Assembly (NCBI GenBank): GCA_902604695.1
Contig: CACKZT010000001.1
Coordinates: forward strand, 62,001 to 126,000
Origin: an uncultured Pelagibacteraceae bacterium
GTDB taxonomy: Bacteria; Pseudomonadota; Alphaproteobacteria; Pelagibacterales; Pelagibacteraceae
Direction of reading: 5' to 3'
DNA length: 64,000 bases
The position numbers and the translations under genes were made by a program. This document shows, one piece after another, positions 32,551-57,181 of the stretch. The number at the start of each line of letters is the position of its first letter. Position 1 is the stretch's first letter. The notes below the pieces were generated by a model. That model saw nothing but the letters and a program-made list of their open reading frames with translations. It did no database searches and was not told the DNA's origin.

Positions 32551-32795
32551 TAATTACTTTTTGGTAAACCTTTCAAAATTTTTTCTTTACTATCTTTTAA
32601 TTGGTTTTTTCCTTCCTGAAGTTTTATTTTCTGAAAACTTTTAGTGTCATCTATAAATTTTTTTGTTTTACATTTTATGTCAAATTTTTTACATTTAGAA
32701 ATATCAGCATTTACAGATGCTATTGATAGAGACAGAAATATAAAAGTAAAAAATAAAAAAATTATTCTATTTTCTTTTTTTTTTGGTTTTGTCAT
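32550..32795 (-). CDS. Small secreted hypothetical protein
   Basis: I do not recognise this 81-residue protein. Residues 1-9 are basic, 10-26 form a strongly hydrophobic stretch, and VNA followed by Asp at 31 looks like a signal peptidase I site. The mature part of about 51 residues is Lys-rich with two cysteines (SKCKKFDIKCKTKK) and a predicted amphipathic helix. The gene overlaps the end of topA by 29 bases in another frame and touches the RidA-like gene. A clear signal peptide in a conserved operon position argues that it is real. Confidence 0.65.
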   Translation of the reverse strand: MTKPKKKENRIIFLFFTFIFLSLSIASVNADISKCKKFDIKCKTKKFIDDTKSFQKIKLQEGKNQLKDSKEKILKGLPKSN

Positions 32796-35328
32796 ATTCT
32801 TTTCTTTTTTCTATTAGTATTAATGCTTCATCCATTGTCAACTCATTTGGATCTTTTTCTTCTGGTATTGTTGCATTTAAAGATTTATATTTTATATAAG
32901 GACCATATTGGCCTTTCATTATTCTAACAGGTTTTTTATCCTCAGGGTGTTCTCCTAGATCCTTAATTATAGAAGATGAAATTCTACCAGGTTTAGCTTC
33001 AGCAATCATAGTGATTGCCCGATTTAAACCAATTGAAAAAATATCCTCTACATTTTCAAGCCTAGCAGATTTTTTTTCACATTTTAGATATGGGCCAAAT
33101 CTACCCGAGTTTAAAGTTATATCTTCACCATTTTCGGGATGTTGTCCTAATACTTTTGGCAATGAACATAAAAACTTTGCTTTATTCAAATCTACACTTT
33201 CAACATCTATGCCTTTTGGAATTGAAACATTCTGAAAGTTTTCATTTTCTTTCTTTTTCTTTTTCTTCTTCTTCTTTTTGATTTCTTGATCAACGTTTTC
33301 TTTTTCATACTGCAAGTATGGACCAAATCTTCCATTTTTAAGATATATATCTTTTCCATTATCGTTTTGACCAATTAATTTTGGTTCTGCTAAATTATAT
33401 TGAGCTGCCGCTTTGCTTTTAGACAAAGGTCTAGTAAATTTACAATCTGGGTAATTTGAACAACCAATAAAAGCACCACCTCGGAAGCTATTCTTTAGAC
33501 TAAGTTGGCCATTTGAACATAATTTGCATTTTCTATCTATGGTGTTATTAGAATCTCTGTCAAAAATAAGCGTACCTAAACTTTCATTTAAAAGATCTAA
33601 AACTTCCCTAGTTCTCTTTTCTTTAACTTCGCCTATATTTTTATAGAAATCTTTCCAAAAGTTTTCTAAAACTTTAACCCATTCAATTTTACCACTAGTT
33701 ATTTCATCTAGCTGGTTTTCTAGATCAGCAGTAAAATTATAGTCTACATATTTGGAAAATAACTTTTCTAAAAACGCAGAAATTAATTTACCTCTATCCG
33801 TAGGGTGGAATCTTTTATTTATTAGTTCTACGTAATTTCTCGTAGATAAAACTGAAATAATACTGGCGTATGTAGAAGGCCTGCCAATACCTAGTTCTTC
33901 CATCTTTTTAACCAAACTGGCCTCAGAGTATCTTGGTGGTGGGTCTGTGAAATGTTGTTCATCAATAAGTTTTAAAATATTTACATCTTCATTAATCTTA
34001 ATTTCAGGTAATATATTTTTAGCATCTTCATCTGTTTCTTGAACTTGATATACTTTTAAAAAACCATCAAATTTAATAATAGAGCCACTCGCTCGAAAAT
34101 TTATTTTTTTATCATCAGATGAGATAATTATTGTACTTCGATCAAATTCTGCAGGTGTCATTTGAGAAGAGAGAGCTCTTGACCAAATTAGCTCATAAAG
34201 CTTCAGTTGATCTGAGTTGACATATTTTTTTAAATCAGAGGGTTTTTTTAAAATATTTGTTGGTCTTATAGCCTCATGAGCCTCTTGTGCATTTTTTGCT
34301 TTTTTTCCACTATAATTATTAGAAAACTCAGGTAAATATTTCTCTCCAAAATCATCCTCAATAAATTTTCTAATATCATTAACTGCTTCTTTAGAAATAT
34401 TTGTGCCATCGGTTCTCATATAAGTTATTAAGCCGGTTGTTTCACCGTCTATATCAACACCTTGATACAATCTTTGTGCAATCTGCATTGTTCTAGATGC
34501 ACCAAAGCCAAATTTACTTGAAGCAGTTTGTTGCAATGTAGAAGTAGTGAAGGGGGCCAAAGGATTTCTTCTGAATGTTTTCGTGTTCACATCAGATACT
34601 TTAAAATTTGAATTATTTATTATCTTTATAGCGCTATCAATTTCACTTTTATTCTTAAAAGAGAATCTCTCAATCTTATTGGAATTATACAAACTTAATT
34701 TTGAGAAAATATTTTTATTATCTTTGTTTGTAAAATTGGAAGTTAGAGTCCAATATTCTTCTGGCTTAAATAATTCAATTTCTTTCTCTCTTTCAGTTAT
34801 TAATTTAAGGGCTACAGATTGAACTCGACCTGCTGATTTAGATCCAGGTAATTTAGTCCATAAAATCGGAGATATATTAAAACCAACAAGATAGTCAAGG
34901 GCTCTTCTTGCAAGATATGCCTCAACCAAAGAAATTTCAATTTTCCTTGGATTTTCAATTGCTTTTAAAATAGTTTTTTTTGTTATTTCATTGAAAACAA
35001 CTCTTTCTAAAGATTTATCTTTCAATAATTTTTTTGACTCCAGCACTTCTTTAACATGCCAGGCTATTGCTTCGCCTTCTCTATCAGGGTCGGTAGCTAA
35101 TATAATTTTTTTCGAGTCTTTAGCTGCGTCAGTTATTTCTTTAAGATATTTTTTCGAAAAAGAGTCTATTTCCCACTGCATTTCAAAACTTTTTTCTGGA
35201 TTTACAGATCCGTTTTTAGAGGGCAGATCTCTGATATGTCCATAGCTAGCTAAAACTAGATAATCTTTTCCAAGATATTTATTTATGGTCTTTGCTTTTG
35301 CAGGACTTTCAACAATTACTAAATTCAT
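32767..35328 (-). CDS. topA: DNA topoisomerase I
   Basis: Type IA topoisomerase that relaxes negative supercoils. The Toprim domain begins SPAKAKTINKYLG and has the acidic DPDREGE motif; the catalytic tyrosine is Y303 in TYMRTDGTNIS. The C terminus has one four-cysteine zinc ribbon (CKLC...CSNYPDC) followed by degenerate repeats of the GRFGPYL type. Between these repeats lies an uninterrupted run of ten lysines. At 853 residues the length is normal. It follows plsY by 69 bases and could have its own promoter. Confidence 0.97.
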   Translation of the reverse strand: MNLVIVESPAKAKTINKYLGKDYLVLASYGHIRDLPSKNGSVNPEKSFEMQWEIDSFSKKYLKEITDAAKDSKKIILATDPDREGEAIAWHVKEVLESKKLLKDKSLERVVFNEITKKTILKAIENPRKIEISLVEAYLARRALDYLVGFNISPILWTKLPGSKSAGRVQSVALKLITEREKEIELFKPEEYWTLTSNFTNKDNKNIFSKLSLYNSNKIERFSFKNKSEIDSAIKIINNSNFKVSDVNTKTFRRNPLAPFTTSTLQQTASSKFGFGASRTMQIAQRLYQGVDIDGETTGLITYMRTDGTNISKEAVNDIRKFIEDDFGEKYLPEFSNNYSGKKAKNAQEAHEAIRPTNILKKPSDLKKYVNSDQLKLYELIWSRALSSQMTPAEFDRSTIIISSDDKKINFRASGSIIKFDGFLKVYQVQETDEDAKNILPEIKINEDVNILKLIDEQHFTDPPPRYSEASLVKKMEELGIGRPSTYASIISVLSTRNYVELINKRFHPTDRGKLISAFLEKLFSKYVDYNFTADLENQLDEITSGKIEWVKVLENFWKDFYKNIGEVKEKRTREVLDLLNESLGTLIFDRDSNNTIDRKCKLCSNGQLSLKNSFRGGAFIGCSNYPDCKFTRPLSKSKAAAQYNLAEPKLIGQNDNGKDIYLKNGRFGPYLQYEKENVDQEIKKKKKKKKKKENENFQNVSIPKGIDVESVDLNKAKFLCSLPKVLGQHPENGEDITLNSGRFGPYLKCEKKSARLENVEDIFSIGLNRAITMIAEAKPGRISSSIIKDLGEHPEDKKPVRIMKGQYGPYIKYKSLNATIPEEKDPNELTMDEALILIEKRKEYDKTKKKRK

Positions 35329-35397: not shown

Positions 35398-35979
35398 TTA
35401 GAACTTTATTTTGTTTTCCGTTCTATTCTTTAGCCTGATCACATTTTCTTTATGTGTATATAAAATTATTACAAAAAATATAAATAACAAAAGACTAATA
35501 TTAATATCAAAAATAATTAAAGAATATATAAAAACTATAAGCGTTGATAAGATGGAAGATAATGAAGAATATTTAAAAAAAATTAAAACAATTAACCAGG
35601 AGACTGAAAAAATTATTCCAAAATTGAAAGATAAAGCAGTGATAATCCCTAAATAAGTCGCAACACCTTTTCCACCTTTAAATCTTAACCATATTGGAAA
35701 AATATGTCCAATAAAGCTTGAAAGAGCAGAAAGGTAAATTAAATCATTAAAATAAATTATTGTTAGATATACAGATATATAACCTTTAGAAATATCAAAA
35801 AACAAAGTTAAGGCAGCTAATTTCTTTTCACCTGTCCTAAGAACATTTGTTGCACCAATATTTCCTGAACCTATATTTCTTACATCTTCCTTTAAAAAAA
35901 ATTTAGTAAGAATCAATCCAAATGGTATTGAACCAAGTATGTAGGAATATAAAACAACAATTATTAGATCTAGATTCAC
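35398..35979 (-). CDS. plsY: Acyl-phosphate--glycerol-3-phosphate acyltransferase PlsY
   Basis: PlsY is an inner-membrane enzyme that transfers an acyl group from acyl-phosphate to glycerol 3-phosphate, the first step of phospholipid synthesis. The 193-residue product has about five membrane helices and all three signature motifs: GSIPFG (16-21), the GSGNIGATNVLR loop, and FKGGKGVAT. The start overlaps the end of the upstream pyrC homologue by four bases, so the two are coupled. Confidence 0.95.
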   Translation of the reverse strand: MNLDLIIVVLYSYILGSIPFGLILTKFFLKEDVRNIGSGNIGATNVLRTGEKKLAALTLFFDISKGYISVYLTIIYFNDLIYLSALSSFIGHIFPIWLRFKGGKGVATYLGIITALSFNFGIIFSVSWLIVLIFFKYSSLSSILSTLIVFIYSLIIFDINISLLLFIFFVIILYTHKENVIRLKNRTENKIKF

Positions 35980-37268
35980 TTTTGACTAAATACTAACTCA
36001 CCATTTAAGAAAGTCATCAAAATTCTTCCTTGTAATTTTCTTCCTTCAATTGCCGTATTCTTAGATTTTGACATTAATGGATCTGCTTTAACCACCCATG
36101 GTTCATTTAAATCAAAAATGCATATATCAGCATCAGATCCTTGAACTAATGTTCCTTTGTTAATGTTCAAAATTTTTGAAGGATTAATAGTTAATGTTTC
36201 AATTATTTTATTCAAACTTAAGGATTCGTTATGATACATTTCAAGAGCTAATGGAAGAAGTGTTTCAATGCCTATAGCACCAACCGCGGCTTGGGCGAAA
36301 GGCAATCTTTTACTTTCTTCATCTTCAGGCCTATGATCAGAAACTATCACATCAATTAATCCGCTCTTAACACCTTCAACCAGTGCTTTTCTATCATCTT
36401 CAAGTCTTAAAGGGGGTGAAATTTTTAAAAAAGTTTTAAAATCTCCGATATCATTTTCATTTAAAGATAGATTATTAATAGAAACTCCAACTGAAAAAGC
36501 TTTCTTATTATCTTTATTTTTTTTAATTACCTCAAGAGAATGTCTAGATGATATTTGATTTATATGATATCTACATGGATATTCACTTAGCAGAGTAAGA
36601 TCTCTTTCTATAATTATTTTTTCAGCCACAGAGGATATTCCTTCTAATCCTAATCTGTTTGAAATTTCCCCTTCATTTATACAACCATTTTTCGATAGTT
36701 CATAATCTTCAGCGTGTTGCATGATTAAAACTCCTAGATCAGAAGCATAATTCATAATTCTAGCCATAGTTTCTGTGTTTTGAACAGTTTTTTTAACATC
36801 GGTAAAACCGATAATACCTCTAGCAGATAAAAGACCAAATTCAGTCATTAGCTTTCCTTGCATTTGTTTTGTAAGGGATGCACAAGGAAATAAATTCACC
36901 GAAGCTTTATCTCTGCCTCTTCTTATTATAAAGTCTACCATTGATACATTGTCAATTATTGGGTTTGTATCTGGCATTGTTACTATAGAAGTCACACCTC
37001 CAGATAATGCAGCTTGACTTAATGTTCTGAAATTTTCTTTATATTCAAAGCCTGGTTCACCAACAAAAGCTTTCATGTCAACTATTCCTGGTATTAGAAT
37101 TTTATTATTGATATCTATAATTTCTGCTGAAGAGGAGGCATCATTTTTTTTAATATTTTTACCTATTTTTTTAACTTTTCCGTTTTCATCAATTATTAGG
37201 GAACCTTTTTCATCTATATTTTGAGATGGATCTATTATTCTAGCGTTTATTAAAATTTTTTCTTTCAT
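35976..37268 (-). CDS. pyrC: Dihydroorotase homologue lacking metal ligands (PyrX type)
   Basis: The 430-residue product has the class I dihydroorotase fold and follows pyrB directly, with no gap. The metal-binding HxH motif, normally DLHVHFREPG, reads DMKAFVGEPG at 64-73, so both histidines and the substrate-binding arginine are lost. The later histidine of the HxxHxS motif is Gln (YHINQIS), and DHAPH reads DHRPE. It is therefore probably not a working dihydroorotase but a structural partner of aspartate carbamoyltransferase, as described for Pseudomonas PyrC'. An active pyrC should exist elsewhere. Confidence 0.88.
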   Translation of the reverse strand: MKEKILINARIIDPSQNIDEKGSLIIDENGKVKKIGKNIKKNDASSSAEIIDINNKILIPGIVDMKAFVGEPGFEYKENFRTLSQAALSGGVTSIVTMPDTNPIIDNVSMVDFIIRRGRDKASVNLFPCASLTKQMQGKLMTEFGLLSARGIIGFTDVKKTVQNTETMARIMNYASDLGVLIMQHAEDYELSKNGCINEGEISNRLGLEGISSVAEKIIIERDLTLLSEYPCRYHINQISSRHSLEVIKKNKDNKKAFSVGVSINNLSLNENDIGDFKTFLKISPPLRLEDDRKALVEGVKSGLIDVIVSDHRPEDEESKRLPFAQAAVGAIGIETLLPLALEMYHNESLSLNKIIETLTINPSKILNINKGTLVQGSDADICIFDLNEPWVVKADPLMSKSKNTAIEGRKLQGRILMTFLNGELVFSQK

Positions 37269-38213
37269 TTATTTACAATATATTTTTAAACATGCCATTC
37301 TTATCGCTACCCCTAATTCAACTTGTTCTTTAATTAAGCTTACATTAATATCATCAGCTAGTTTTGTATCTATTTCTACTCCTCTATTCATAGGTCCAGG
37401 ATGCATAATCAAAGCATCCTTACTAGCATATTTTAATTTTTCAGGTGTTAAACCGAAATATTCATAATATTCTCTTTTGGAAGGAAGAAAAGATCCCTGC
37501 ATTCTTTCGTTTTGAAGTCTTAACATCATAACGATGTCACATGATTCTAAACCTTTTCTCATATTAGTAAAAGATTTTACACCAAGTCTATCTATAGATT
37601 TTGGCATTAAAGTTTTTGGTGCGATAACATTTACTTCTGCACCTAGCATATTCATTAAGTAAATATTAGATCTAGCAACCCTTGAATGAAGAATGTCTCC
37701 ACATATTGCAATTTTCAAACCTTCAATCTTTCCTTTTCTATTTATTATAGTTAAAGCGTCTAATAATGCCTGAGTAGGATGTTCTCTTCTACCATCTCCA
37801 GCATTTATAACTGCACAATTTACTTTTTGAGATAAAAGATTTGGAGCACCAGAGTCTTGGTGCCTTATTACTATTAGATCTGGGTGCATAGCATTTAATG
37901 TCATAGCTGTGTCAATTAAAGTTTCTCCTTTTTTAAGAGCGGAGTTTGACATATTCATTGACATAACATCTGCACCTAATCTTTTTCCAGCTAAATCAAA
38001 AGAGCTTTGAGTTCTAGTTGAAGGTTCAAAAAATAAATTTATTTGTGTTTTTCCTCTAAGAACATCTAATTTTTTTGATTTGCTTCTATTTAACTTTATA
38101 AATGCTTTAGCTTCGTTTAGAATTTTTTTAGCATCTAAAATTGATAGATTTTGAATACCTAAAAGGTGTTTTTGAGAATTTTTAACAGCTGAAGTATTTT
38201 TTATTACTGCCAT
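37269..38213 (-). CDS. pyrB: Aspartate carbamoyltransferase catalytic subunit
   Basis: PyrB joins carbamoyl phosphate and aspartate in the first committed step of pyrimidine synthesis. I chose the ATG at 38213 (314 residues, [14 protein letters not shown]); the frame is open to a TTG at 38222. The carbamoyl-phosphate motif [35 protein letters not shown] and the C-terminal [12 protein letters not shown] are intact. It heads the pyrB-pyrC-plsY-topA group. No pyrI gene is present, consistent with an ATCase that uses a DHO-like partner. Confidence 0.96.
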
Positions 38214-38248
38214 TAAAATCAACTCTATAGGCCTTTTGCTGCTTTATA

Positions 38249-38713
38249 TCAAGTATTTTCTTTAGTTAAGTAATCAAGTGCTCCTTGTAGTATAAATTGA
38301 GCTGAGTTTTCATCTAATTTACTAACTTTTTTACTTGAATTAATGTCCAAATTTCTCGATAAATTGAAGGCACCCTGGCTTGAATATCTCTCATCCCACA
38401 TAGTGACATTTTCTGTAATATCTTTTGATAAATTTATTGCTAAATCTTTCGCTGATTGAGATGATTTACTTTTTGATCCATCTAAGTTAATTGGATTTCC
38501 TACTATTATTCCCTTGATATCATTTTCTTCCATTATTTGTTTAAGCTCTTTTAAAAAAATTGAATATTCGTTTTTTATAATGGTAGAATAGGGAGTTGCT
38601 ATAATTTTATTTTCATCTGATATAGCTATTCCAATCCGTTTTTTTCCGGGGTCGATTCCCATTAATCTTGATTTTTTATCTAGTTTTTTCTTAAAATCTT
38701 CAATATCCAGCAT
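38249..38713 (-). CDS. ruvX: RuvX/YqgF-family putative pre-16S rRNA nuclease
   Basis: Members of this RNase H-like family (RuvX/YqgF) process the 5' end of 16S rRNA in bacteria. The 154-residue product from the ATG at 38713 has MGIDPGKKRIGIAISD with the catalytic D21, the GNPINLDGSKSKSSQSA motif, and MWDERYSS near the C terminus. A further in-frame ATG at 38758 would add 15 residues but would leave only nine bases to the divergent gatC. pyrB follows 35 bases downstream on the same strand. Confidence 0.93.
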   Translation of the reverse strand: MLDIEDFKKKLDKKSRLMGIDPGKKRIGIAISDENKIIATPYSTIIKNEYSIFLKELKQIMEENDIKGIIVGNPINLDGSKSKSSQSAKDLAINLSKDITENVTMWDERYSSQGAFNLSRNLDINSSKKVSKLDENSAQFILQGALDYLTKENT

Positions 38714-38767
38714 GTTTATGTTATATTTTATGATATTAATTTCCTGTAAAATTAACATAATTCACAA

Positions 38768-43552: not shown

Positions 43553-44914
43553 ATGAATCTTACAAAAGACTCAATTTGGATATTATTAAGAAAAGTCACG
43601 ATACCAGCTAGCACTGGATCTTTATTTATGACTTTTTATAACCTAGTCGATACATATTTTGCTGGAAAAATATCACCCGAAGCTCTTGCAGCCGTTGCTA
43701 AATCTTGGCCGATAACATTTATTGCATTGGCCATATCAATTGGTATTCAAGCAGGAACTCAAGCACTTATCAGTAACTCAATAGGGGCTAAAGAAAATAA
43801 AGAAGCATCTTTATATGTTGCACAATCTATAACCTTTGCAATTATTACTTCAATTTTTGTAACTCTATTTGGTCTTAACTTTTCGGAATTTTTACTCAAA
43901 ATTATGGGTTCAACTAATGAAAGTGTAATTTTAACCAGAGAATATCTAGATATCATTTTTTTTGGCTCAATAATTATTTTAGTGCAACTCTCTTTAAACG
44001 GAACTTTAGCCGCTCAAGGTGATACTAAAAGTTATAGAAATATTTTAATTATTTCATTTTTTTTAAATATAATCTTAAATCCACTTTTTATATTTGGTTA
44101 TGGAGTTATCCCTGGTTTTGGCATAGCAGGTTTAGCTATATCAACTTTAATTGCTCAAGCAGTAGGAGTCTTTTATTTAATATATAAAGTCTATTGTTGT
44201 AAATTAAAAAAATTTCTATATTTTGAATGCTTCGTTCCTAAAATTAATTTTCTATTTAATATTCTTAAACAGTCAGTCCCTATAATGTTTACAATGCTCA
44301 TGATAATGTTTGGTATTTTTAATATTTTCTATTTCGTAGGTCAATTTGGTGAACTTGCTACAGCTGGATATGGTACTGCTGTGCGTATAGAGCAAGTTTT
44401 GTTATTACCTGTAATAGGTTTAAATACAGCGGTTTTATCAATAGCAGGGCAAAATTATGGTGCTAAACATTTTAATAGAATTAAAGAAGTTTATGGTAAA
44501 GCTTTAACATTCGGATCAGGATTTATGGTGATTGCGGGAATAATTATTTATTTTTCCTCAAGTTTTGTAATATCGTTATTCACCAATGACTTGGAAGTAA
44601 TTAAAAGTGGAGCTCTTTATTTACAAGTAGCAGCCTTAATAGGTCCGATCTATCCTGTCTTTTTTATTACATCAGCATTGTTCCAAGCTGTAAAATTACC
44701 CATCTTAAGTCTTTATATGACTATTATACGATTAACTTTAATACCATTTTTATCTCTTTGGTATGTAATCAATATTAAAGAAGGTGAATATCAAGATATT
44801 TTTTACACTATAATGGCAACTAACTGGCTTATGGGTATAGCTGTATTATCTTTCATCCCATTTTTTTTAAGAAAAAAATTAAAAATGAGCTTTAAACAAT
44901 TATTTGTATTTTAG
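43553..44914 (+). CDS. MATE family efflux transporter
   Basis: A multidrug and toxin extrusion transporter of the inner membrane, probably using a Na+ or H+ gradient. The 453-residue product has 12 predicted membrane helices and two MatE halves; the first has PASTGSLFMTFYNLVDTYFA and PEALAAVA, the second a matching PIMFTMLMIMFGIFNIFYF. The substrate cannot be told from the sequence. It starts five bases after trhO and its end overlaps a convergent ABC permease gene by 15 bases. Confidence 0.9.
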   Translation: MNLTKDSIWILLRKVTIPASTGSLFMTFYNLVDTYFAGKISPEALAAVAKSWPITFIALAISIGIQAGTQALISNSIGAKENKEASLYVAQSITFAIITSIFVTLFGLNFSEFLLKIMGSTNESVILTREYLDIIFFGSIIILVQLSLNGTLAAQGDTKSYRNILIISFFLNIILNPLFIFGYGVIPGFGIAGLAISTLIAQAVGVFYLIYKVYCCKLKKFLYFECFVPKINFLFNILKQSVPIMFTMLMIMFGIFNIFYFVGQFGELATAGYGTAVRIEQVLLLPVIGLNTAVLSIAGQNYGAKHFNRIKEVYGKALTFGSGFMVIAGIIIYFSSSFVISLFTNDLEVIKSGALYLQVAALIGPIYPVFFITSALFQAVKLPILSLYMTIIRLTLIPFLSLWYVINIKEGEYQDIFYTIMATNWLMGIAVLSFIPFFLRKKLKMSFKQLFVF

Positions 44915-45634
44915 TTTATTCTCTAGTTTTCTTACAAAGTAAGAAACAAATAAAATTAGAATTAAGTACTCTAAAATTAAAAAGGTGTAAATTTCTAGTG
45001 GTCTGTAAGTGGTTGTAACAAGTTCATTAGCTTTTCTTGTTAAGTCAGCTATACCAATTATCGATACTAGAGACGACATTTTTAAAACATAAACAAATTG
45101 ATTACCCAAAGCAGGTAGAACTACTTTTATCGCTTGTGGCAAAATCACAAATCTCATTTTTTTCCAGAAATCCATTCCAAGCGACATGGACACCTCATGT
45201 TGACCTTTGTTAATTGAGTTAATTCCTGCTCTAAAAATCTCAGCTTGAAATGCACTCTCACTAATTGTTAAAGCTATAATTCCAGATACAAAAGGAGAGA
45301 AGCTGACTCCTAGCATTATAGGTAGTCCATAATAAATCCAAAGTATTAAAACTAATAATGGAATAGCTCTTACGATTTCGACATATGCAATATTAAAATA
45401 ACTTAAGAACTTATTATTTGAAAGTGACGGTAAGGCCACAATTAAACCTATAATCATTGCAAGAATTATTGATACAACAGAAATATAAATTGTAGTAGTT
45501 ATTCCACTTATTAAAAATTTAATATTAGTTAATCCTTCAACGTTATCAGGATTTAAGATGTACCATCCCCACTCATAATTTGATGAACATCCCTGTAAAA
45601 ATAAAAAGAAAATAATGTATTTAATAAACTTCAC
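44900..45634 (-). CDS. Amino-acid ABC transporter permease with lipobox-like N terminus
   Basis: Inner-membrane permease of the polar amino-acid (HisM/GlnP) class. The 244-residue product has five main membrane segments and an EAA-type loop (SMSLGMDFWKKMRFVILPQA) that contacts the ATPase. The N terminus reads like a lipoprotein signal, with LQGCSS around residues 14-19 followed by a Trp/Tyr-rich stretch (YEWGWYILNP), which is unusual for a permease. It follows the binding-protein gene by 41 bases. No ATPase or second permease gene is in the window, so partners must be elsewhere. Confidence 0.88.
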   Translation of the reverse strand: MKFIKYIIFFLFLQGCSSNYEWGWYILNPDNVEGLTNIKFLISGITTTIYISVVSIILAMIIGLIVALPSLSNNKFLSYFNIAYVEIVRAIPLLVLILWIYYGLPIMLGVSFSPFVSGIIALTISESAFQAEIFRAGINSINKGQHEVSMSLGMDFWKKMRFVILPQAIKVVLPALGNQFVYVLKMSSLVSIIGIADLTRKANELVTTTYRPLEIYTFLILEYLILILFVSYFVRKLENKLKYK

Positions 45635-54892: not shown

Positions 54893-56643
54893 TCAATAAT
54901 GACCAACTCATAAATAAAGTCAAATCATATAATAAATTTTTAAATCACACCACTTTAACTAAAGCGTATAATTTTGCAGTAAGTGCGCATAAAAATCAAA
55001 TGCGTAAGTCAGGTGATCCATATGTTATACATCCTGTAGCAGTAGCAGATATTTTAACAGATCTTAAGCTCGATAGCGCAACCATTGCAACGGGATTGTT
55101 ACATGACACAATAGAAGATACTAAAGCAACTTACGAAATAGTTCTTAAAGAATTTGGAAAAGAAGTAGCCGATTTAGTTGATGGAGTGACTAAAATTTCT
55201 GCTTTAGAAAATAAAGCTGTAAAAAACTCAAAGGCAGAAAATTTTAGAAAACTAATTTTAGCCACATCAAAAGATATAAGAGTTCTACTTGTTAAAATTG
55301 CAGATAGACTTCATAATATGAGAACAATTGATGCTTTTGACTCAGACTCAAAAAAGAAACAGATAGCAAAAGAAACAATGGAAATTTATGCACCATTAGC
55401 AGATAGAATGGGAATGAATAGAATAAGAGATGAATTAGAAGATTTATCATTTTCAGTATTAAATAGCAAAGCTAGAAAATTAATTATTGAAAGATTAAAC
55501 TTTTTAAAAAATAATAGAGATGATAATTTTAATTTAATTTCAGGTGAACTTATTGACTTATTAAAATCAAAAGGTGTTAACGCTAAGATAACAGGGAGAG
55601 AAAAAACTGCTTTCTCGATTTGGCGTAAAATGCAAAATAAAAAAATTTCACTTGAACAACTCACTGATATTATTGGTTTTAGAATTTTATTGGATAATGT
55701 TGATGATTGCTATAAAACTTTAGGAATTTTCCATAATAAATATTCAGCCGTTCCTGGTAAATTTAAAGATTACATTTCAACACCAAAAATTAATAAATAT
55801 AAATCTATTCACACATCATTAATAGGTCCAATGAAACAAAGAATTGAAATTCAAATTCGAACTCATGAAATGCATGAATTTGCTGAAAGAGGTATTGCAT
55901 CGCATTGGAAATATAAATCCTCAGAAAAATATTCTGATATATCTTGGAAAGAATATGATTGGTTAAGAGATTTAGTTGAAATTATTGAAACAGGTAATAG
56001 CCCAGAACATTATTACGAATTTACTAAATTACAAATGTTTCAAGATAATGTTTTCTGTTTTACTCCAAAAGGCGCGGTAATTAAACTACCAAGAAATGCG
56101 ACACCAATAGATTTCGCTTATGCTGTTCATACTAAGATTGGAGATACTGCTATAGGGTGTTATATTAATGGAACGGAATCTCCACTTCAAAGTCAATTGA
56201 ATAATGGAGATATTATAAGGATTATAAATTCTAAAAAAGTTTCTCCATCACTACATTGGCTTTCTTCTTCAAAAACAGGTAAAGCAAGATCTTCTATAAG
56301 AAAATATTGGCAAGGTAAGTTTTCTGACCCCGAGAAAAATTTAAATTTAAATAAAAAGTATACGAGCACATTGGAAATAGACCTTCCTCATCAACCAGGT
56401 GTTCTAGGTGAAATTAGTACTTTAATAGGTATGAATAGGAGCAATATTTTAAACGTTGAATTATTAGAGAGAAAAGATAAATATTTAAAATTTTCATTTG
56501 ATATACAAATAAGTGATCTAAAAAATTTTACTAACTTGATAAGTGAAATTAAACAAAAAAACTTTAATTTTACTATAATAAGACACAAAGAGAAAAAAAA
56601 TGCTTTCATACAAAGAATCTTTAAAAATTTTAAAAGAAACTAA
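54889..56643 (+). CDS. relA: Bifunctional (p)ppGpp synthetase/hydrolase, compact Rel
   Basis: Makes and degrades the stringent-response alarmone. The hydrolase domain keeps H48, H72-D73 and E76-D77 (LLHDTIEDT); the synthetase domain has GREKTAFSIWRKM and KFKD at 291-294, the RxKD form typical of bifunctional enzymes. A TGS domain (about 387-445) and a C-terminal ACT domain (about 494-565) follow. At 584 residues it is well short of the usual 700 or more: only about 40 residues separate TGS and ACT, so the helical and zinc-finger linkers are missing. It overlaps pyrE by 44 bases. Confidence 0.95.
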   Translation: MINNDQLINKVKSYNKFLNHTTLTKAYNFAVSAHKNQMRKSGDPYVIHPVAVADILTDLKLDSATIATGLLHDTIEDTKATYEIVLKEFGKEVADLVDGVTKISALENKAVKNSKAENFRKLILATSKDIRVLLVKIADRLHNMRTIDAFDSDSKKKQIAKETMEIYAPLADRMGMNRIRDELEDLSFSVLNSKARKLIIERLNFLKNNRDDNFNLISGELIDLLKSKGVNAKITGREKTAFSIWRKMQNKKISLEQLTDIIGFRILLDNVDDCYKTLGIFHNKYSAVPGKFKDYISTPKINKYKSIHTSLIGPMKQRIEIQIRTHEMHEFAERGIASHWKYKSSEKYSDISWKEYDWLRDLVEIIETGNSPEHYYEFTKLQMFQDNVFCFTPKGAVIKLPRNATPIDFAYAVHTKIGDTAIGCYINGTESPLQSQLNNGDIIRIINSKKVSPSLHWLSSSKTGKARSSIRKYWQGKFSDPEKNLNLNKKYTSTLEIDLPHQPGVLGEISTLIGMNRSNILNVELLERKDKYLKFSFDIQISDLKNFTNLISEIKQKNFNFTIIRHKEKKNAFIQRIFKNFKRN

Positions 56644-57181
56644 TGCTTTGATGGAGGGACATTTTATCCTTTCCTCAGGATTGCATAGCACAAAATATGT
56701 TCAATGTGCTCAATTATTAAGTAAACCACAATATTCAAAAAAAATATGTGAGTCGTTGGCTGATAAAATTAAAAATGAATTCAGAGATATTAATTTAATT
56801 TTATCTCCAGCTATGGGCGGCATCATTATTGGATATGAAATCGGGAAGTTGCTTAATATAAATACAATATTTTCAGAGCGAGTTAATGGTGCTTTTACCT
56901 TAAGAAGAGATTTTATTATTCCAAAAAATATAAATGTATTAATTGTCGAAGATGTTATTACAACAGGTAAATCAAGCCTCGAATGCTCTGAACTTGTCAA
57001 AAAAGCTCAAGCAAATGTTCTAGGCTATGCCTGTATAATTGACAGATCTAATGGAAAGTCCTTTATTAAAGAGAAAATTATTTCCCAAATAGAATTGAAT
57101 ATTTCTACATTCGAAGCAAATAATATTCCAAAAGAACTAGAAAAAGTAAAAGCTATAAAACCTGGCAGCAGAGGTCTTTAA
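56600..57181 (+). CDS. pyrE: Orotate phosphoribosyltransferase
   Basis: PyrE joins orotate to PRPP to give OMP in pyrimidine synthesis. The 193-residue product has LSSGLHSTKYVQCA near the start and the PRPP loop VLIVEDVITTGKSS at 113-126, with the SERVNGAFTLRRDF flap. The ATG at 56600 is 44 bases inside the end of relA; a downstream start would remove conserved residues, so this overlap is accepted. AGAGAAAA precedes it. pdxJ shares one base with its stop. Confidence 0.95.
   Translation: MLSYKESLKILKETNALMEGHFILSSGLHSTKYVQCAQLLSKPQYSKKICESLADKIKNEFRDINLILSPAMGGIIIGYEIGKLLNINTIFSERVNGAFTLRRDFIIPKNINVLIVEDVITTGKSSLECSELVKKAQANVLGYACIIDRSNGKSFIKEKIISQIELNISTFEANNIPKELEKVKAIKPGSRGL

Follow-up and report, generated by a model that had tools for sequence, protein, structure and literature searches.

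The open reading frame at positions 35,976 to 37,268 of the window, by which we mean the whole analysed stretch of 64,000 nucleotides, most probably encodes a catalytically dead type I dihydroorotase. We suggest that this protein, PyrC', is the non-catalytic chain of a class A2 aspartate transcarbamoylase (ATCase) formed with PyrB, and that a separate PRK09060-type enzyme makes dihydroorotate; we give this reading a probability of roughly 0.88. Three features of class A2 were found here: a type I homologue adjacent to pyrB, lost metal ligands (H61K, H63F, D153V and H232Q) and a separate dihydroorotase. The putative role as inactive partner of PyrB is supported by its fit with the adjacency of the genes, the loss of the metal site, the predicted fold, purifying selection and the separate dihydroorotase. 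The binding of the two chains, their stoichiometry, PyrB's need of PyrC' and the inactivity of PyrC' are what we infer. A first-pass annotation had described a dihydroorotase homologue without its metal-binding residues beside pyrB; the protein is a full-length type I homologue, and the loss goes further than was stated there.

The pyrB-pyrC' locus

The host belongs to SAR11, its closest relatives in the genome collection being Pelagibacteraceae with 83% identity. Its own genome comprises 815,218 bases in 21 contigs and is 78.6% complete. We take the neighbours of pyrB-pyrC' to be plsY, ruvX and topA. The genes of the locus are:

35398..35979, minus strand: plsY, the gene after pyrC', overlapping it by 4 bases; used as divergence control (ORF list)
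35976..37268, minus strand: pyrC' (pyrX; also pDHO), putative pseudo-dihydroorotase of 430 aa with an ATG start (ORF, family scores, alignment, predicted structure)
37269..38222, minus strand: pyrB, aspartate carbamoyltransferase catalytic chain (NF002032, 404.8 bits against a cut-off of 263)
38249..38758, minus strand: ruvX-like gene, 26 bases upstream of pyrB; used as synteny anchor (ORF list)

The listed start of pyrB is a TTG at 38222, with an ATG at 38213 as an alternative. The order pyrB-pyrC' without a gap, as given in the first-pass annotation, is confirmed: the TAA of pyrB is directly followed by the ATG of pyrC' (gap 0). In the window the order ruvX-pyrB-pyrC'-plsY-topA lies on one strand, which suggests one transcription unit. 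The topA gene (32767-35328) encodes a protein with a run of 10 lysines. It directly follows plsY in the window, at the place where five alphaproteobacterial loci (L200, L201, L242, L243 and L244) have an ORF of 370-388 aa that we take to be DprA-like. Elsewhere in the window, the ORF at 44900-45634 is presumably amino-acid ABC permease-like, and has a lipoprotein-like N-terminus with LQGCSS.

Other SAR11 loci were fetched in two sets, 109 loci in all; 22 proteins occur in both sets, leaving 84 distinct PyrC'. All 108 other SAR11 loci with both genes have pyrB and pyrC' on one strand, with no more than 2 bases between them. The gap is 0 in 73 loci and 1-2 in 11; the genes overlap by 1-4 bases in 22 and by 25 in 2, the latter with a mechanical start. 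Two pyrB-pyrC' loci with equal identities, L023 and L026, lie about 39 kb apart on CACKXF010000001.1, and may be a duplicated block or an assembly artefact.

The wider sample of the class consists of 142 alphaproteobacterial genomes, the host's own included. A partner was called at 258 bits or more against NF006558, and PyrB when over its cut-off. PyrB was found in 98 genomes and a PyrC'-type partner in 90: 89 have both (89 of the 98 with PyrB), 9 have PyrB only, 43 have neither and one, at a contig end, has the partner only (1 of the 44 genomes without PyrB; G007). The association has a Fisher p of 3e-26, uncorrected for relatedness. These counts include a few partners that are probably active, because 5 of the 87 partners read keep D153. 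Among loci of the class with both genes, that of the window included, the two are on the same strand in 87/87 and within 60 bases in 80, the farthest being 1682 bases apart.

Active site, fold and selection of PyrC'

Nine active-site columns were read, in the numbering of the Aquifex dihydroorotase: H61, H63, R65, N95, D153, H180, H232, D305 and H309. We take R65 to be the substrate arginine, and R65, N95 and H309 to have substrate roles. By alignment, PyrC' of the window has K F G D V H Q D E in these columns:

37071..37073, minus strand: K66, replacing the alpha-site ligand H61
37065..37067, minus strand: F68, replacing the alpha-site ligand H63
37059..37061, minus strand: G70, replacing R65
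36969..36971, minus strand: D100, replacing N95 (in the window only among the SAR11 loci read)
36795..36797, minus strand: V158, replacing the alpha-site ligand D153
36714..36716, minus strand: H185, kept (Aquifex H180)
36555..36557, minus strand: Q238, replacing the beta-site H232
36336..36338, minus strand: D311, kept (Aquifex D305)
36324..36326, minus strand: E315, replacing H309

The first-pass annotation had the HxH motif replaced by KAF, a second metal histidine by Gln and the substrate arginine lost. All three recur in the alignment (H61K and H63F; H232Q; R65 to G70); it had missed D153V, which removes the third alpha-site ligand, as well as N95D and H309E. What marks an active type I dihydroorotase is thus missing, both the HxH and Asp of the alpha site (K66, F68, V158) and R65/N95/H309 (G70, D100, E315).

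These losses differ in weight. The zinc ligands of the Aquifex enzyme are H61, H63 and D153, and H180 with H232 forms a second site that is zinc-free there (PMC3880350, in excerpt). An H180A/H232A double mutant is still active with unchanged kinetics (PMC3880350, in excerpt), and H232Q alone is therefore weak evidence of inactivity. The best evidence that PyrC' would be inactive is the alpha site (H61, H63, D153), with K66, F68 and V158 as the decisive losses. In the other SAR11 loci the columns read KFGNVHQDE in 106/109 (82 of the 84 distinct proteins) and GFGNPHQSE in the remaining 3 (2 of the 84). Since all 109 share the loss of ligands, it is neither chance nor sequencing error, and since all 109 read N at the position of N95, N95D is particular to the window.

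Similar observations were made across the class. Of the 87 partners read, that of the window apart, 82 are without D153 and without one or both of H61/H63, and 68 of these lack all three; most partners in this sample have thus decayed. D153 is kept in five, two of which have one of the histidines and three both. The latter (L106, L153 and L163) have all nine active-site residues intact. They are probably active, and may be a class A1 remnant or a reacquisition.

PyrC' scores 364.5 bits against TIGR00857, the type I dihydroorotase family, over the curated cut-off of 279.05, and the earlier warning that automatic annotation would name it an active dihydroorotase was justified. The nearest model is NF006558 (PRK09059) with 553.9 bits, below its cut-off of 645; it should be noted that this cut-off is reached in only 1 of the 142 genomes of the class.

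The structure of PyrC', predicted from an input alignment of 40 rows, has a mean pLDDT of 95.2 and a pTM of 0.93. The best solved matches of the model are 4bjh_A (Z 59.8) and 3d6n_A (Z 59.6), with an rmsd of 1.4 over 422 aligned residues. Both are dihydroorotase chains from the DHO-ATC complex of Aquifex aeolicus, a class A1 ATCase, and have the same fold as PyrC' at 38-39% identity. The Bacillus anthracis structures 3mpg (Z 59.3) and 4yiw (Z 59.1) are tied with these, and the isolated Aquifex dihydroorotase, in which loops are missing, gives Z 51.8-53.0 over 362-372 residues.

Selection was estimated from 86 loci with distinct pyrC' DNA. The median omega of pyrC' is 0.046 (638 usable of 3655 pairs of distinct sequences) and the highest value 0.157. 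Over 588 shared pairs the median is 0.046 for pyrC' against 0.027 for pyrB, and the median pN is 0.130 for PyrC' against 0.056 for PyrB. By these estimates pyrC' is under strong purifying selection, with the predicted fold kept and selection acting on the fold. That a small genome keeps a dead enzyme of 430 aa under strong selection argues that PyrB needs PyrC'. The frame is full-length in 79 of the 80 SAR11 loci of the first fetched set. Frames broken near the end were seen in L079 (4501-5786, a frame of 391 aa) and G155:C32 (two pieces, one with stops), and these may be assembly errors or recent decay.

Source of dihydroorotate and role of PyrC'

A second dihydroorotase is encoded at G000:C9:36294-37511, within a frame of 439 aa, and scores 636 bits against NF006559/PRK09060 (cut-off 482). 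The first-pass annotation had called for a second pyrC with intact HxH; a separate gene is indeed present, with the difference that its motif, DTQVHFREPG, is QxH and not HxH. Because of this QxH, its activity is something we infer. The columns of PRK09060-type proteins read QHRNGHHDH in 4/4 SAR11 copies, in 6/6 copies from f139, another family of the same order as SAR11 (24 genomes), and in 10/11 other alphaproteobacterial copies read. QxH stands in place of HxH in 20 of the 21 alphaproteobacterial copies read (e.g. L002 1450-2769). The closest solved relative, the putative dihydroorotase 2gwn of P. gingivalis, has the same QVHFREPG.

In f139, TIGR00857 finds one gene in 20/24 genomes; the six that were read are PRK09060-type, and the matches of the remaining 14 cover the same lengths. 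The pyrD gene was found in 24/24 f139 genomes and is present in the host's own genome, and the ORF at 56600-57181 of the window is presumably pyrE-like. A class II dihydroorotase (TIGR00856) was considered as the working enzyme and rejected: 0/61 relatives scored over the cut-off, and the weak matches compared coincide with the positions of the PRK09060-type gene. The QxH enzyme is the likely source of dihydroorotate, since it is the sole candidate found in f139, where PyrC' was not found, class II matches stay under the cut-off in the 61 genomes and pyrD is kept. A search for PyrI with TIGR00240 gave no match in the host's own genome, which is weak evidence of absence at 78.6% completeness.

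The class A2 ATCase of P. putida is reported to consist of PyrB plus pDHO (Schurr 1995, as cited). In P. aeruginosa, ATCase activity requires the inactive pDHO, and the catalytic chain by itself is a monomer (PMC7053772, in excerpt); this biochemistry bears out the first-pass annotation's appeal to Pseudomonas. The SAR11 system likewise pairs pyrB with a predicted inactive type I homologue. PyrC' has been described as an inactive paralogue (PMC2770081, in excerpt), and dodecameric ATCases with an active or inactive dihydroorotase have been described (PMC4581275, in excerpt). In 15 Pseudomonadota loci outside the class (L255-L269) the partners have decayed differently, with columns such as SARQGTQHH and ARRDARRDV against KFGDVHQDE in the window.

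A further parallel by description is smc01361 (PyrX) of the alphaproteobacterium S. meliloti. It is annotated as a dihydroorotase, adjoins pyrB, has a second PyrC elsewhere in the genome and is proposed to be an inactive PyrB partner; its disruption leads to pyrimidine auxotrophy (PMC5929573, in excerpt). There the evidence is an experimental phenotype, and the likeness to SAR11 is one of description. The Aquifex dihydroorotase is active when bound to ATC (PMC3880350, in excerpt), unlike the predicted inactive PyrC' of SAR11. The fungal ura2 pseudo-dihydroorotase is also inactive and kept with ATCase (PMC7053772, in excerpt); it is a domain of one long chain, whereas PyrC' is a separate gene. 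In the open-access literature searched, we found no paper on SAR11 or Pelagibacter together with dihydroorotase.

We suggest that PyrB and PyrC', made from abutting genes, would assemble, most likely into a dodecamer in which two PyrB trimers are held by three PyrC' dimers; for class A2 a mass close to 500 kDa would be expected. The PyrB trimer would thereby stay together and retain its shared active sites, while dihydroorotate would be supplied by the separate PRK09060-type enzyme.

PyrC' might instead be mainly regulatory, binding nucleotides or passing signals to PyrB, with structural help secondary. Pseudomonas class A2 ATCases are inhibited by nucleotides (PMC7053772, in excerpt), and the regulatory chain of E. 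coli contacts Glu109 of the catalytic chain (PMC6056424, in excerpt), with which S124 of the window PyrB is aligned. However, in P. aeruginosa nucleotides are said to act by weakening assembly, and the ATP site is placed on the catalytic chain (PMC7053772, in excerpt); we consider a mainly regulatory PyrC' highly improbable.

It is similarly improbable that PyrC' has kept dihydroorotase activity, working with a changed metal site or with none. Activity has been attributed to one Pseudomonas PyrC paralogue that lacks the conserved zinc residues (PMC2770081, in excerpt), and PyrC' keeps H180 and D305; against this, three alpha-site ligands and R65, N95 and H309 are all replaced, the genome has a separate dihydroorotase, and f139, where no PyrC' was found, keeps the PRK09060-type gene (20/24 with a match, 6 of these read). 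Least probable of all is a decaying, functionless remnant that persists by chance or because it is coupled to plsY. The faster change of PyrC' than of PyrB, its absence in relatives and the two broken frames are what such a remnant might leave, but the low omega, even at its highest, and the full-length frame in 79 of the 80 loci of the first set speak against it. An inactive structural partner of PyrB is the reading that we prefer.

Loss of the partner and changes in PyrB

The order ruvX-pyrB-plsY-topA was found on one strand and without pyrC' in all 20 f139 loci fetched. Of the nine genomes of the class with PyrB but no partner, seven were analysed. The other two were set aside: in G021 (L245) an Aquifex-like dihydroorotase with HVHLRDPG lies close to pyrB, and in G139 the end of the contig truncates pyrB. 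In six of the seven, pyrB is followed by plsY and topA; in L247 pyrB is reversed. Since these 20 f139 and seven class loci keep PyrB without PyrC', the partner has been dispensable in evolution.

Compared with the PyrB of the window, the proteins have a median identity of 63.2% in the 86 partnered loci of the class, 54.2% in the 20 f139 loci (18 distinct proteins) and 46.4% in the seven partnerless class loci. For plsY the corresponding medians are 41.8% (75 class loci with partner), 43.1% (20) and 43.8% (7). The pyrB-minus-plsY difference separates the groups with a Mann-Whitney p of 2e-9, with f139 counted once and other relatedness uncorrected; this test used 102 partnered rows, without L197 and L198. 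Two parts of PyrB were singled out by residue comparison:

37821..37853, minus strand: PyrB residues 124-134 (with L129 and L130), candidate docking surface
37470..37472, minus strand: PyrB E251, second partner-linked position

Residues were counted in 104 partnered rows, 18 from sampled SAR11 (17 distinct) and 86 from the class, here with L197 and L198 included. Residue 129 is L, M or F in 104/104 partnered rows and E or K in 20/20 f139 rows; the seven other partnerless rows have M, F, E (three rows), K or R. Residue 251 is E in 104/104 partnered, 2/20 f139 and 1/7 other partnerless rows. All 108 SAR11 PyrBs (74 distinct) match both motifs, and 30/30 partnered Pseudomonadota loci outside the class, where the partner has all nine active-site residues in 14 and not in 16, have L or F at position 129 and E at position 251. 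The Aquifex ATC is an exception: it lacks the L129/E251 signature, with E and S at the two positions, yet binds dihydroorotase, which argues against a general rule.

A phylogeny-aware test of the link on a plsY tree (usable plsY in 94 of 106 chosen rows) was not significant, which also speaks against a general rule; the best tree has eight changes in PyrC' presence, but only one independent pair on supported branches. In the PyrB tree, f139 and four of the seven partnerless class rows fall outside the partnered rows and the other three inside. Long branches and unusual composition were flagged in this tree, which does not tell a loss with fast change from a replacement of pyrB.

In the R state of the E. 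coli enzyme, Glu109 of the catalytic chain forms a bond with the regulatory-chain residue Asn111 (PMC6056424, in excerpt), and the PyrB segment 124-134, including S124, aligns with the PyrI-contacting stretch. The patch formed by 124-134 and 251 may be an interface, a candidate that we regard as a lead. E. coli Glu239 was considered as the counterpart of E251 and dropped; the loop alignment, itself unsure, put Glu239 elsewhere. An N-terminal extension of PyrB as the cause of partner dependence was also rejected and is not a useful marker, because partnerless f139 ORFs, with mechanical starts, carry a similar stretch before the first conserved motif, and because its deletion left assembly and activity in P. 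aeruginosa unaffected (PMC7053772, in excerpt).

Based on these observations we tentatively speculate, at a little under even odds, that a docking surface of alphaproteobacterial PyrB (a hydrophobic residue 129 in SGAxxLL, and E251) is also gone from the lineages without PyrC', f139 among them, while the gene order was kept. This would be a switch from a class A2 to a stand-alone ATCase within the same operon, reached either through faster change in pyrB or through its replacement in place.

Pairs of PyrB with an inactive partner are already known in Pseudomonas and proposed in Sinorhizobium, and the SAR11 case is well-supported but ordinary. Family scores would name pyrC' an active dihydroorotase across SAR11, and the working enzyme is probably another gene. 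What could become interesting is that relatives have lost the partner without a change in gene order and show a corresponding change in PyrB; f139, which is without PyrC', offers a natural comparison for the PyrB residues that create the dependence.
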